From Lentibacillus sp. Marseille-P4043 (GTDB lineage Bacteria; Bacillota; Bacilli; Bacillales; Amphibacillaceae): a DNA stretch of 64,000 nt. The notes under the pieces are model-generated. The model saw only the letters and a program-made list of their open reading frames with translations. It had not been told where the DNA came from and ran no database searches. The DNA lies in NCBI RefSeq assembly GCF_900258515.1, contig NZ_LT984884.1, forward strand, positions 1,025,289-1,089,288, read 5' to 3'. A program made the translations under genes and the position numbers. Below, piece after piece: positions 34,259 through 63,989 of this stretch; positions within the stretch are counted from its first letter, which is position 1; each line of letters opens with the position of its first letter.

Positions 34259-34435
34259 GCAGCCCGTACACACGTAGACTCTGGGGGAAGAGAGGCATCG
34301 GTGAGACCCCGCAGTGCGGAAAGGGAGTAAAGGCCAAGATCGCCACGTCCTGTGGCAACGCCTTCATGACCAACGTCGTGTTGGCCTGAGGAGGCTCTCC
34401 AGCCGCCCCCGGAAAGCGAAGTGTGTACGGGCTGC
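34259..34435. repeat. Palindromic dispersed element with 15-bp perfect terminal inverted repeats
   Basis: GCAGCCCGTACACAC (34259-34273) and its exact complement (34421-34435) bound a 177-bp element. Inside are GAGACCCCGCAG, a module running from CGCCACGTCCTGTGGCAACG to GTGTTGGCC, GAGGAGGCTC and GGAAAGCGAAG. The module reappears almost unchanged inside the Rpn-type gene at 63.2 kb. There is no coding capacity. Confidence 0.9.
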
Positions 34436-44126: not shown

Positions 44127-44174
44127 GGTTGGACTGGGAGCGTTGCCTCGTGGTTAGCGCTAGATTTGGCCCCG

Positions 44175-45070
44175 GGAGCGAGAACATCGGCCCGAGAACG
44201 AGAACATCAGCCCGAAAACGAGAACATCAGCCCGAAAACGAGAACATCAGCCCGAGCGCGAGAACATCAGCCCGAGAACGGAAACATCAGCCCGAGAGCA
44301 GAAACATCGTCCCGAGAGCGGAAACATCGTCCCGAGAGCGGAAACATCGTCCCGAGCGCAGAAACATCGGCGCGAGAGCGGAAACATCGTCCCGAGCAGA
44401 GAAACATCAACCCGAGAGCAGAAACATCGGCGGGAGAGCAGGAAACATCAGCCCGAGAGCAGAAACATCGGCGCGAGAGCAGAAACATCGGCCGGAGGAC
44501 GGAAACATCGTCCCGAGAGCAGAAACATCGTCCGGAGAGCGAGAACATCGTCCCGAGCAGAGAAACATCGTCCCGAGAGCAGAAACATCGGCGCGAGAGC
44601 GAAAACATCGGCCCGAATGCGAGAACATCGGCCCGAGAGCGAGAACATCAGCCCGAGAGCAAGAACATCGTCCCGAGAGCGAAAACATCAGCCCGAGAGC
44701 AAAAACATCAGCCCGAGAGCAGAATCATCAGCCCGATAGCAGAAACATCGGCGCGAAAGCAGAAACATCGTCCCGAGAGCAGAAACATCGTCCGGAGAGC
44801 GAGAACATCGTCCCGAGCAGAGAAACATCGTCCCGAGAGCGGAAACATCGACCACGAGAGCGGAAACATCGTCCCGAAAGCAGAAACATCGGCCGGAGAG
44901 CAGAAACATCGTCCCGAGCGCAGAAACATCAGCCCGAGAGCAGAAACATCGGCGCGAGAGCAGAAACATCGGCCGGAGAACGGAAACATCGTCCCGAGAG
45001 CAGAAACATCGTCCGGAGAGCGAGAACATCGTCCCGAGCAAGAAAACATCGATCGGTGAGCGAAAACATC
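44175..45070. repeat. Large 20-bp tandem array, about 45 units
   Basis: Nearly 900 bases built of 20-base units, consensus GAAACATCGTCCCGAGAGCG with three main variants after ACATC (GTCCCGAG, AGCCCGAG, GGCGCGAG or GGCCGGAG). Since 20 is not divisible by three, translated frames cycle through three peptides (for example ETSSREQKHRPESENIVPRA); the long open frames here are by-products and I do not call them genes. A multi-unit block around GTCCGGAGAGCGAG recurs near 44531, 44791 and 45012, showing higher-order duplication. It fills the space between the carnitine operon terminator and a convergent gene. Confidence 0.95.
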
Positions 45071-45130
45071 AGCCCGAGCACGACACACGCATCAACCCAA
45101 GGACGTGGAAACCGCCCTCACTCTCATCTT

Positions 45131-47555: not shown

Positions 47556-48044
47556 TTGGGGTCCAATCATGAAGAAATTGCTTTAGATTTTCATAATCAA
47601 AAATATGCAGCCGATTTAGTGCATTATAGCTTGCTAAAGGATCAACTAAACTATACGGCTCACCCGCTGGATGCAATCGAGAAATGCAGTTGCGATGTGG
47701 AACGATATCCTATTGTTATACAATATCATCGCATTCCCGTAGGCTTTTTCGTATTGCATGACAGGGGTGGTTTTCCAAAATATAGTAATAATGAAAATGC
47801 TATATTGCTAAGGGCCTATTCTGTTGATAGTCGTTATCAAGGAAAGGGTATTGCAAAAGAGTCGTTAAAACTACTACCATTCTTTATAAAAAATTATTTC
47901 CCGGGAAAAGATGAAATTGTGCTTGCAGTGAATCACAATAATACACATGCACAAATGGTATATAAGAAATGCGGGTTCAGAGATAATGGTGGTCGAGTAA
48001 TGGGGAGGAAAGGTGAACAATTTGTTTTTGGAAAGATGATATAG
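47556..48044 (+). CDS. GNAT-family N-acetyltransferase
   Basis: 162 residues, starting at TTG 47556 (GGAGGGGAG upstream). The acetyl-CoA motif is RAYSVDSRYQGKGIAKESLK (Q/RxxGxG/A), followed by LAVNHNNTHAQMVYKKCGFR, the typical C-terminal strand-helix of GNAT enzymes. The protein is close to the size of spermidine or small-molecule acetyltransferases, but no substrate can be named. Coupling to the MerR-methyltransferase gene suggests both respond to the same inducer, for instance a xenobiotic or antibiotic. Confidence 0.88.
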   Translation: MGSNHEEIALDFHNQKYAADLVHYSLLKDQLNYTAHPLDAIEKCSCDVERYPIVIQYHRIPVGFFVLHDRGGFPKYSNNENAILLRAYSVDSRYQGKGIAKESLKLLPFFIKNYFPGKDEIVLAVNHNNTHAQMVYKKCGFRDNGGRVMGRKGEQFVFGKMI

Positions 48045-48094
48045 GGTTATTAATTAAAAATGTTTTAATAAATGGATGATAAAATTTCCAGACT

Positions 48095-48103
48095 TGTTAT
48101 AAT
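48095..48103 (+). promoter_or_regulatory. Extended -10 promoter of the small-peptide transcript
   Basis: TGTTATAAT contains a perfect TATAAT with the TG of an extended -10; the -35 is weak. Transcription would start near 48110, at the first base of GAGGATATGAT, which is exactly complementary to 48359-48369 downstream. A second -10-like TATGAT follows at 48115. Confidence 0.6.
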
Positions 48104-48157
48104 AGGTTTGAGGATATGATTTACTCATCTCTTTTTTTGAAAGGAGGTGAATAAGAG

Positions 48158-48319
48158 ATGGAAGAAGCATCCCAGATTTTACTTCTTGTTGTGGCGATTT
48201 GTAATGTTGTTGTTGCTGTATTGCAAGTATTTACAACAATTATAGAAAGCCATAATAGAAGGAAAAAGCCCTCTTTGTCTCCACAAACAAAGAAGGCCGA
48301 AAAATCTGACCGGGATTAA
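48158..48319 (+). CDS. Small membrane peptide, candidate type I toxin
   Basis: 53 residues from ATG 48158 with a very strong ribosome site (AAAGGAGGTGA, 8 bases away). One hydrophobic helix (QILLLVVAICNVVVAVLQVF) is followed by a basic stretch SHNRRKKPS and a charged tail. The layout (single helix, positive C-terminal side, strong site) fits membrane toxins of type I systems such as TxpA or BsrG, without recognisable sequence identity. On the opposite strand a promoter (48359-48387) and a terminator inside the 3' part of this gene define an antisense RNA. The toxin assignment is inference from this architecture. Confidence 0.6.
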   Translation: MEEASQILLLVVAICNVVVAVLQVFTTIIESHNRRKKPSLSPQTKKAEKSDRD

Positions 48320-48352
48320 GGGGGACTACCCCTTCTTCCCTTCCATTATCTT
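48262..48352 (-). ncRNA. Candidate antisense RNA (type I antitoxin) to the small membrane peptide
   Basis: The minus strand has a promoter TTGCAA-N17-TATGAT (48387-48359) and, about 55 bases downstream of the predicted start near 48352, a perfect intrinsic terminator: GCCTTCTTTGT (48297-48287) pairs with ACAAAGAGGGC (48278-48268) with one G-U pair, followed by TTTTTCC. The roughly 90-base RNA would cover the last 19 codons and the 3' untranslated region of the peptide mRNA, as RatA and SR4 do for their toxins in B. subtilis. The sequence supports promoter and terminator directly; transcription is inferred. Confidence 0.6.
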
Positions 48353-48358
48353 ATGTAT

Positions 48359-48387
48359 ATCATATCCTCTTTATTCCAAAATTGCAA
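48359..48387 (-). promoter_or_regulatory. Promoter of the antisense RNA
   Basis: On the minus strand TTGCAA (48387-48382), 17 bases, then TATGAT (48364-48359). The -10 lies within the sequence complementary to the 5' end of the sense transcript. Confidence 0.65.
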
Positions 48388-48403
48388 GTAAGGAGTGAAA
48401 ACA

Positions 48404-48490
48404 ATGCTATATTTTGCATTAGTTGCTTCATTAATTGCATTGGTGATGACCGTTGTCAATTTAACGGTTACTCTAAAAAAGAAAAGGTAA
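48404..48490 (+). CDS. 28-residue membrane peptide
   Basis: ATG 48404 follows TAAGGAGTG at 6-8 bases. The product MLYFALVASLIALVMTVVNL then TVTLKKKR is one hydrophobic helix with a basic end, a form common among small membrane-active or regulatory peptides. It lies just beyond the antisense promoter, whose -35 falls in its leader. A hairpin (TGAATACA with TGTGTTCA at 48495-48514) follows. It may belong to the same system as the 53-residue peptide. It shows no similarity to a family I know. Confidence 0.5.
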   Translation: MLYFALVASLIALVMTVVNLTVTLKKKR

Positions 48491-48732
48491 TAAGGTGAAT
48501 ACACACTTGTGTTCATCATCAGTTTCGCATCGCTATATGTTATTTTTGAATGGTAATTACGGCTTCTTTTACTTCTGATTTCCCTTTGACAATACGGCGA
48601 GGTAACGTTTGTACGATTCTGTTTTTCATATAGTGGCTTTTACTTATCAACAACATTGGCATAATTATTGTCGTAAAAATTACCTAGATAAAATACACAT
48701 AAGGGGGCGACCATATTACTTATTCATACATC

Positions 48733-49620
48733 ATGATGATTTTTGTTGTTATTTTTTATGCGGGGAACATTCTGATCGGCAAGGCTATTAATGAATTACC
48801 ACCGTTCACGATTGCGTTCTTCAGGTTATTGGTTGCATTTGTAGTGTTGTTACCAATTGGATTTCGTAGTGCTTGGAAAAACCGTGCTAAATTTTTGGAG
48901 TATAAAAAGCCGTTTTTGATGATGACCTTAACAGGAATAACGTTTTTCAATACATTTATTTATGGGGCGTTACAATTTACTACCTCATCAAGCGTTTCTG
49001 TGCTGGAATCAGTTGTACCAGCAATGACTGTCGTGTTAAGTGCAGTTATATTGAAAGAAAGATTACGAACCATTCAATGGGGTGGAGTAGTATTATCGCT
49101 GATCGGTGCCGTATGGGTCGTCATGGATGGAAAAATCCTGCAACTAACAGCAATTGACTGGAATGTTGGAGATATCATTATGATTGGTGCCATTGTATCC
49201 TGGGCAATCTATTCGATTCTGGTAAAGCAGTATATGCATCTATTTCCGTCATATGGCGCAATTCTTGTTATGACCGGTATTTCAGTCATTGTATTATGTC
49301 CAATTGTGTTGATCGAGTGGGCCATACTCGGGTTACCCTCCTTTGACTCATCAAATTTTATTATCGGGCTTTTGTACCTAGGTATTTTCCCATCGTTTAT
49401 TGCCCTAGTTTTTTATAATCGAGCAGTGGATGTGCTGGGCGCCTCCCAAGCATCCATCTTTCTAAACTTCCTTCCTGTAGCCACAATGATTGGCGCATAC
49501 ATATGGTTAGATGAAGTGATTGCCGTTACACAAATAATTGGGGCATTGGCGGTCATTTGTGGTGTGATCATAACGACACAGGCAGGAGTAAAACAACGAG
49601 TGTTAAAAGGGATTGGTTAG
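48733..49620 (+). CDS. EamA-family (DMT) transporter
   Basis: At least 295 residues, ten membrane helices in two EamA halves (AGNILIGKAINELPPFTIAF and ESVVPAMTVVLSAVILKERL in the first; VSWAIYSILVKQYMHLFPSY and FLPVATMIGAYIWLDEVIAV in the second). These are metabolite or drug exporters of unknown substrate. The first in-frame ATG (48733) lies 24 bases from the only good ribosome site (AAGGGGGCG, 48701-48709). Well placed behind that site is ATT at 48715, which would add ITYSYI. Either ATT is used as a rare start or an ATG there has been lost. Confidence 0.88.
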   Translation: MMIFVVIFYAGNILIGKAINELPPFTIAFFRLLVAFVVLLPIGFRSAWKNRAKFLEYKKPFLMMTLTGITFFNTFIYGALQFTTSSSVSVLESVVPAMTVVLSAVILKERLRTIQWGGVVLSLIGAVWVVMDGKILQLTAIDWNVGDIIMIGAIVSWAIYSILVKQYMHLFPSYGAILVMTGISVIVLCPIVLIEWAILGLPSFDSSNFIIGLLYLGIFPSFIALVFYNRAVDVLGASQASIFLNFLPVATMIGAYIWLDEVIAVTQIIGALAVICGVIITTQAGVKQRVLKGIG

Positions 49621-62955: not shown

Positions 62956-63989
62956 TAACTATATTCTTGGTTAACCCGGTAGCATTCGCAACAAATTCAA
63001 TTTCCAGGCCCTTTTCTAAAAGTCGAAGTGCAATGGTTTCCTTTGTTTTATGCTCAGCTTCCTTTGCCTTTTGCTCAGCCTTTTGTTCGGCGTGTTGTAC
63101 TCGCAATTCAGCTTCACGTTGGGCTGCTTCCTCATCCATAATTTGTTTCAATCGGGATTCATAAACAAGCCTTTGTTCCTGTTCCATGCTCAGCCCTTCC
63201 CAGTTATGAAAGGCTTCCCTTAGTGACTCATCATTCAAAGCCATCACCTCGGGCCCACACGATGTGGGTCATGCAGACGTTGCCACAGGACGTGGCGTTC
63301 TTAGTCTGCCTTCCTTTACTTTTATCATCATAGATTTTACCGTTTCTAGAATCGACCATGCCAAGCAGCAAAAGCCATCTTGCCAGCGCATCATTCCATG
63401 GATCAAGTTTATCATCTTTCCAATCCTTTATTAACTTGCTCATCTCAATAAAATGAAATTCCATCACATTCGTCAGTTTGAACTGGTCTTCATCTTCATA
63501 TAAATGATAGGAAGTATGGAAACGTTCTGTTTGACTAAAAAGATCAAAGTTAAGAATATTGATTGAAATTACCGGTCGCAATTCTGTATAACCCATTCCC
63601 TTTTTCTGTGAGCTTAAATATGCCTTGGACCAGTAATAGATGGAACGTTTAATCATATCATATTTATTTGTAAATTGGATTTCTACATTGATCTTTTCAT
63701 CGGCATTTGTAACAACTAGCAGATCCAGTCTTGACTGTTTATCATCAACATATTCCCCGCTGAATTCCGTATTCATAAATGAGATATCCTTGATTTGATT
63801 CCTACCTGTTTTCTGTAAAATTGCATTCAAAAATACAACAGTAATATCCTTATTCTTTTCATTTCCAAATAGTTGTTTGAAGGCGTAATCAACTTTTAAA
63901 TCCATTAGTTGTTCTAGTGGAATGCGTTTAAGTAATTTTGATCTATTAATTTCCTGTTTTCGCTTGGTGTATTCATTTCGATCTTCCAT
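62927..63989 (-). pseudogene. Rpn/PD-(D/E)XK transposase-family gene, split by a repeat insertion
   Basis: The first part (63989 to about 63303) encodes LLKRIPLEQLMDLKVDYAFK, FSGEYVDDKQSRLDLLVVTN with NVEIQFTNKYDMIKRSIYYW, the nuclease core of the Rpn family (recombination-promoting nuclease/PDDEXK transposase). It then enters repeat-derived codons (NATSCGNVCMTHIVWARGDG) and stops at 63231. The family's C-terminal part resumes in another frame as MALNDESLREAFHNWEGLSM, EQRLVYESRLKQIMDEEAAQ and a coiled-coil tail ending at 62927. Thus the gene is interrupted by about 60 bases related to the 34.3-kb element. The second part has GAGGTG before ATG 63244 and might be translated separately. Confidence 0.82.
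63240..63302. repeat. Core module of the dispersed element inserted in the Rpn gene
   Basis: On the minus strand CGCCACGTCCTGTGGCAACG, then CTGCATGACCCACATCGTGT and GGGCCCGAGG align base by base, with few changes, to 34347-34393 in the 177-bp palindromic element. The module contains two short hairpins (GCCACG-CGTGGC type and CCCACAC-GTGTGGG type). Confidence 0.82.

Follow-up and report, generated by a model that had tools for sequence, protein, structure and literature searches.

Positions 48,095 to 48,490 of the window (the whole 64,000-nucleotide stretch that was analysed) probably hold, at a rough probability of 0.75, a chromosomal type I toxin-antitoxin module with two small membrane peptides, P1 and P2, a toxin mRNA predicted to be closed over its start codon, and predicted control by an antisense RNA. 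The best reading of its wider setting is a widespread two-peptide type I toxin-antitoxin family that works like yonT-yoyJ/SR6 of Bacillus subtilis and locks its toxin mRNA much as hok and aapA do. The parts of the module are as follows.

48098..48103, plus strand: TATAAT of the predicted sense promoter, an extended -10 (TGTTATAAT) with TG at 48095-48096; 10/12 of the consensus
48110..48120, plus strand: predicted 5' end of the sense RNA, GAGGATATGAT; left half of the outer long-range helix in both the MFE and the centroid structure
48125..48150, plus strand: 5'UTR hairpin, 48125-48135 with 48140-48150, enclosing the ribosome-binding site (RBS) (MFE and centroid)
48140-48149, plus strand: RBS of P1, AAAGGAGGTG
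48151..48164, plus strand: start-codon region of P1, ATAAGAGATGGAAG; left half of the inner long-range helix
48158..48319, plus strand: P1 open reading frame (ORF), a predicted single-transmembrane toxin of 53 aa with a basic tail
48262..48298, minus strand: intrinsic terminator of the antisense RNA within the last P1 codons, hairpin 48298-48267 plus T tail
48262..48352, minus strand: predicted antisense RNA of about 91 nt, overlapping the last 58 bases of P1
48340..48354, plus strand: 3' box, CTTCCATTATCTTAT; complement of the P1 start region and template for the antisense 5' end
48359..48369, plus strand: ATCATATCCTC; right half of the outer helix and, on the opposite strand, the antisense -10 region
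48387 to 48359, minus strand: antisense promoter TTGCAA-17-TATGAT
48404..48490, plus strand: P2 ORF, single-transmembrane, 28 aa, with its own RBS AAGGAGTG (48390-48395)

An earlier note on this DNA had proposed a candidate type I toxin-antitoxin locus of a possibly undescribed family. The P1 gene with its strong RBS and extended -10 promoter, the minus-strand antisense promoter, the exact 11-bp complementarity of 48110-48120 to 48359-48369, and P2 with its upstream RBS are all present where the note placed them, and the antisense RNA of about 90 bases that it drew from 48352 is matched by our covariance model R2 (see below) as a 91-nt RNA. The antisense terminator that the note called perfect is there with its T tail, but it is imperfect: its computed stem has 14 bp, 5 of them G-C, and G-U pairs are allowed and do occur. 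The note listed the parts of the layout but overlooked that P2 recurs as one of them and that the last codons of P1 are the terminator; likewise, its pairing between the mRNA ends is exact and recurring but is half of a larger feature, since the helix between start codon and 3' box was missed. The type I assignment itself finds good support in the conservation of promoter, terminator, 5'-3' pairing, P1, and P2, but the claim of full novelty is unsupported. The layout of toxin, 3'-overlapping antisense, and second toxin already exists in yonT-yoyJ/SR6 of B. subtilis, although neither the protein model nor the Rfam model of that system covers the window. Outside that system, no description of the family appears among the matches listed for the open-licence literature.

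How widely is the module spread? A search with the single P1 sequence yields one 61% relative in the same genus and weak matches in eight further genomes of the family; in the protein database it returns the window's own peptide only, and a scan of genome contigs returns none. By eye, the same layout recurs among the weak matches, of which L002 is a second copy from the genome of the window itself. A profile built on nine P1 peptides has matches in 30 of the 159 genomes from this taxonomic family (E <= 1e-4, hand count), 7 of which supplied the nine peptides, and a larger P1 profile has matches in 21 of 397 genomes of the order (E <= 1e-3) and 11 of 398 genomes of the class (E <= 1e-4), eight of these outside the order. 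The start set of 61 distinct P1 matches (E <= 2e-4) was reduced to 54 usable loci, from 40 genomes of the order (mapped by hand), by dropping L025, L043, L047, L053, L082, and L088 for broken or unclear frames and L048 for having no start. L038, L075, L076, and L078 were left out of the promoter-score and ensemble tests (n = 50), and these four together with L003 out of the start-base and outer-helix covariation and pN/pS tests (n = 49). The start used for L035 is an inner GTG picked by the script, and alignment A3 holds 37 of 49 distinct P1 peptides. L007, L008, L009, and L013 were rejected as members; their matched frames contain stop codons, and the sequence-only model R1 is blank there. 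In the protein database, relatives with a named source belong to Lentibacillus, Virgibacillus, Gracilibacillus, Halobacillus, Saliterribacillus, Lederbergia, Tuberibacillus, Geobacillus, and Bacillus sp. J14TS2; those that have a protein name are called hypothetical proteins apart from one putative membrane protein and one phage protein. The P1 of the same-genus relative is identical to a peptide of Lentibacillus sp. L22 (P0002) except for the first residue, which makes a Lentibacillus-like genome the probable source of the window.

P1 of the window has a 19-residue segment with a hydropathy of 2.92, followed by a net charge of +4. Its relatives are 34 to 59 aa long in 52 of the 54 loci, with two frames that run on, and the tail after the hydrophobic segment is positive in 49 of 52 (the run-on frames excluded). 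A single membrane helix followed by a basic tail is the form of known type I toxins, and by this analogy P1 would be toxic. The pN/pS ratio is 0.38 for P1 (72 pairs of relatives) and 0.40 for P2 (30 pairs), indicating from sequence comparison that both ORFs are under purifying selection. P2 is present in 32 of the 54 loci and absent by its profile from the other 22, a count that is partly circular because the profile was built from 25 ORFs of the same loci (one spurious match, in L080, was removed); the gap after the P1 stop is 70 to 120 bases in 29 of the 32. Two peptides at this frequency would make the two-peptide arrangement old and selected. The tail motifs by which the P1 subgroups are told apart, KKKDHRSAKR and KEKNPSPTQPEKDS, have codons that are, on the opposite strand, the antisense terminator; one piece of DNA is apparently maintained both for the peptide that it encodes and for the RNA terminator on its other strand. 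PADLOC gave no match for the four peptides tried, a phage collection none to one P1 relative, and a plasmid collection none to the P1 of the window. Some P1 copies are apparently damaged: the nearest relative, L003, has ATA as its start codon, and the frame of L025 ends after seven codons; in L082 and L088 no P1 start with a ribosome site was found. R2 still matches the antisense in these four loci, and intact copies exist elsewhere. Short metagenome peptides with a TAIVNL-like core, mostly without the long basic tail (P0017-P0023), possibly form a further branch.

A generic promoter scan of the window stretch finds 4 promoters against 4.0 expected, which is chance level, and the case for the antisense promoter therefore rests on its conservation. 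The best antisense promoter score averages 10.65 over 50 loci against 5.08 after shuffling, a mean reached by 0 of 50 shuffled sets, and it is individually significant at the 5% level in 35 of the 50. The hairpin at 48298-48267 is the sole terminator-like site on either strand of 47900-48800, where shuffles average 0.4, and across the family a minus-strand terminator lies inside the 3' part of P1 in 43 of 54 loci against 10.4 expected. According to the earlier note, an antisense promoter and terminator that were unconserved beside a conserved P1 would count against the module; both turn out to be conserved far above shuffles. Opposing promoter and terminator together predict antisense RNAs of about 70 to 100 nt across the family.

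The antisense RNA also appears to be conserved as a structure. The fold predicted for the window has a z of -3.6, and aligning 16 antisense RNAs of a single subgroup gives two hairpins in which 13 of 22 pairs, assigned by hand from these same 16 sequences, are changed on both sides; the covariation score is reached by 0 of 500 shuffles. R2 is the covariance model of these 16 RNAs, with no yonT sequence among them. The search with R2 covered 34 of the 38 member loci outside the training set and found the antisense in the right place and on the right strand in 33 (E <= 0.1), the one miss being L078, and in 30 at E <= 0.01, both by hand count. In the 64-kb window R2 has a single match at E up to 10, at 48262-48352 on the minus strand (22.1 bits, E 7e-4). 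Additional matches elsewhere at E <= 1 occur in L003, L024, L028, L029, L043, and L082. RNAalifold found no pairs in a 31-row alignment, probably because the helices were misaligned, and R1 is therefore a sequence-only model. Seven low-score Rfam matches in the window stretch were rejected, all being far below gathering. Among the class-level loci outside the order, R2 places an antisense just past P1 in L123, L124, L127, and L128 (E below 0.001), where P1 has just 25 to 32 aa; the match in L130 is weak (E 0.009), and none was found with R2 in L125, L126, and L129. P2-like ORFs follow P1, by eye, in L124, L125, L126, L127, and L128.

The sense RNA from 48110 to 48375 has a predicted fold of -106.6 kcal/mol (z -10.7), and 0 of 200 shuffles are as stable; the folding programs take no account of ribosomes or co-transcriptional folding. 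In this fold, which is unchanged when P2 is added, 48110-48120 pairs with 48359-48369, the RBS lies in its hairpin, and 48151-48164 pairs with 48340-48354. Watson-Crick runs between the 5'UTR and the 3' region extend to at most 11 bp, a length reached by 1 of 1,000 shuffles. Across the family, the start region pairs with its own 3' region at -18.5 kcal/mol and with those of other loci at -16.3, a preference reached by 0 of 5,000 permutations with kinship ignored; for the 5'UTR upstream of the RBS, the own 3' region is not clearly favoured in the 54 loci (260 of 5,000 permutations, kinship again ignored). A start-codon duplex of at least 10 contiguous bp occurs in 26 of 54 loci against 4.0 expected, and in the predicted ensembles the start region is 62% paired with the 3' region, compared with 31% after shuffling, and higher than shuffled in 46 of 50 loci.

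Where the start base is A, its best partner is T in 30 of 33 loci, and where it is G, the partner is C in 13 of 16. Start codon and box thus change together in these sequences, ATG with T and GTG with C. Since this table picks the best partner, the position of the partner was tested separately: in 34 of 49 loci its distance from the antisense -10 is 14 to 18 nt, against an expectation of about 3 loci. The window is among the 15 exceptions, with its best ungapped partner elsewhere, because its helix has a bulge. The lock is absent from L005, L011, and L049. In eight previously unused loci, the energy test of the start helix is not significant (50 of 200 shuffled sets), and a contiguous-run test, done after the energy test and with one start corrected (L103), gives 0 of 200 both for the start and for the 5'UTR. 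No more than 18 of the 54 loci have the 5' motif of the outer helix, and three of its positions show paired changes; in 16 of these 18 the best partner of the motif starts precisely at the antisense -10, and cognate partners beat permuted ones (0 of 10,000, kinship ignored) in a test that favours the cognate because partners were chosen per locus. Terminal repeats of a transposon were considered as the source of the 5'/3' repeat and rejected because P2, which lies outside the repeat, recurs with the unit.

We propose that in the nascent P1 mRNA the RBS would first be hidden in the local hairpin, and that full closure over the start codon would follow once the 3' box is transcribed. The antisense RNA, whose promoter lies between P1 and P2, would pair with the 3' part of the mRNA and lead to its destruction, the duplex presumably being cut by RNase III as published for yonT/SR6 in the account of PMC5848175. 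P1 would be translated only from mRNA whose 3' box has been lost or freed while antisense is scarce, a removal or unpairing modelled on the published aapA and hok mRNAs. P2 would be cotranscribed and may be the partner of P1 or a second, weaker toxin like YoyJ; its RBS at 48390 is outside the predicted antisense RNA, which could therefore act on P2 only via decay of the shared transcript. Antisense RNA and start codon would compete for one 3' box, so that, without rapid cutting of the duplex, the bound antisense would itself undo the lock. With its covariation, the start-codon lock leads one to expect an inactive full-length toxin mRNA, a strategy assigned to Gram-negative systems in section 2.4 of a 2019 review (PMC6562991), and it offers single base changes with clear expected outcomes.

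Several known systems share parts of this scheme. Like txpA/RatA, bsrG/SR4, and bsrE/SR5, as treated in the review (PMC6562991), the module is predicted to have a small membrane toxin, an antisense RNA over the 3' end of the mRNA, and an RBS in a short helix; their antisense RNAs are longer, 163 to 222 nt, and each has one toxin. Section 2.4 of that review names short local helices for txpA, bsrG, and bsrE, and the word "long-range" is absent from the review as a whole. With hok/Sok and aapA/IsoA, as described in PMC6733600 and PMC11228461, the predicted mRNA has in common a full-length form closed by a 5'-3' interaction over the initiation region and a local hairpin that covers the RBS first. 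In our loci this interaction is seen in fold prediction and in covariation only. Both are Gram-negative systems, likened here by layout. The inactive aapA3 mRNA is opened by 3' truncation in those same accounts, whereas processing of the P1 mRNA is our inference, and, unlike in hok and aapA, the 3' partner here sits at the 5' end of the antisense RNA.

The closest known system is yonT-yoyJ/SR6 of the SPbeta prophage (NCBIfam NF047537, Rfam RF02892), as set out in PMC5848175. According to that 2018 study, it is unlike the other type I systems studied in having one RNA for two toxins, and its complete yoyJ is found in B. subtilis only among the five species compared; in the 2019 review, both yonT and yoyJ are described as widespread in Bacillus and in some cases truncated (PMC6562991). 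P2 is present in 32 of 54 loci, in contrast to this restriction of complete yoyJ in the 2018 comparison. In the phages phi3T and SPR, yonT is followed by annotated ORFs, of 71 and 83 aa, with close similarity to YoyJ (L138 1029-1244 and L139 996-1247), and such a frame is therefore not confined to SPbeta.

Is the module, then, a divergent true homologue of yonT-yoyJ/SR6, one family rather than a look-alike? We give this a little short of an even chance; our reading is that the module works like yonT-yoyJ/SR6, with homology possible but unproven. The two agree in the order of their parts: a strong RBS and a basic peptide with a membrane segment as in yonT, a (here predicted) antisense RNA of about 100 nt that runs like SR6 from an opposing promoter just past the gene into the 3' coding end of the toxin, and a second small membrane-protein gene downstream. 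A sense terminator was found neither here, in the scan of 47900-48800, nor for yonT in the account of PMC5848175. The SPbeta locus (L122) shows toxin, hairpin past the stop, opposing promoter region, and second membrane-protein gene in the same order, and its opposing promoter region, CCATATTATAAC, resembles the box of the P1 family. Over all 134.8 kb of SPbeta, the top R2 match is SR6, with strand and place both correct (18.9 bits, E 0.012), and its sole match in the yonT loci of phi3T and SPR is in the same place as SR6; the runner-up in SPbeta, however, is close (E 0.07), and the sequence-only R1 does not find SR6 at E <= 10. The Rfam SR6_antitoxin model, which scores the SPbeta locus itself at 128 bits, reaches gathering neither in the window nor in any of 27 related loci. 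For the peptides, the NCBIfam YonT model weakly matches 3 of 37 P1 relatives (best E 7.5e-4), but the best of them reaches 19.6 bits where the cut-off is 45, the P1 of the window has no match, and a profile comparison of P1 with YonT gives a probability of 20%. In the predicted fold of the yonT mRNA, the GUG start pairs with a 3' segment, and the duplex has 8 Watson-Crick pairs, reached by 0.9% of shuffles; with G-U pairs allowed, 18.6% reach an equal duplex, and we reject the lock as established in yonT. Secondary structures of yonT/SR6 had not been probed as of the 2019 review, which also gives YoyJ 83 aa and two membrane segments (PMC6562991), in contrast to the 28 aa and one helix of P2. 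SR6 overlaps the 5' end of yoyJ, whereas the antisense RNA predicted for the window starts near 48352, short of the P2 RBS. A bolder version of the family, which we hold tentatively and think somewhat improbable, is an undescribed, Bacilli-wide two-peptide family in which one box is both the 5' end of the antitoxin and the lid of the mRNA, giving a Gram-positive lock in the style of hok and aapA, with P2 as a conserved partner and yonT-yoyJ/SR6 as an outlier with a similar GUG lock.

Two further explanations depart from the toxin-antitoxin reading or from the RNA lock. P1 and P2 could be non-toxic membrane peptides with a regulatory antisense RNA, such as a stress-response or holin-like pair. 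Weak matches of that kind are scattered through the family, to holin PHROGs, to Pfam Hol_Tox in 2 of 26 P2 peptides (best E 0.0084; none for P1 or P2 of the window), and to a YxzE-like putative bacteriocin model in 5 of 37 P1 peptides (best E 0.012). Against this reading stand an overlapping antisense RNA with its terminator inside the ORF, an RBS and start codon that are predicted to be doubly sequestered, a patchy occurrence, more than one copy in a genome, and damage to some P1 copies, all usual for type I toxin loci, and we consider such a pair unlikely. The matching 5' and 3' sequences could alternatively be a DNA element, an operator or inverted repeat common to two promoters, rather than an RNA helix: the same sequence forms the sense 5' end and the antisense -10 region, and one binding protein could keep both alike. 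This we think very unlikely, given that a separate second helix involves the start codon and tracks its change from ATG to GTG, keeps its distance from the antisense -10 in most loci, and persists in loci without the outer repeat. A chromosomal type I module with an RNA lock remains the preferred reading.

Some copies and neighbourhoods are observations in their own right. L136, in the window's own genome (C1:8543-8630), has a readable box, hairpin, and opposing promoter-like sequence, no P1 frame with an RBS was seen there, and it is probably a decayed copy. L073 (G059:C29:75991-76702) holds two modules of different subgroups, about 500 bases apart and in opposite orientation, in a genome with four P1 matches altogether. 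L043 has a second strong R2 match at 684-761 (E 2e-7), about 900 bases from the first, perhaps a module without a P1 match. In L023 the module (1821-2187) adjoins a tmRNA gene, and tmRNA genes are a common integration site of mobile elements. Elsewhere in the window, the only Rfam gathering matches are Bacillaceae-1 RNAs (RF01690) at 34318-34384 (plus strand) and 63254-63320 (minus strand), an RNA for which we know of no function. At 44171-45078 a 20-base unit, CCCGAGAGCGAGAACATCGG, is repeated in tandem about 45 times, with several frames open on each strand, and this array looks like a minisatellite rather than a gene.
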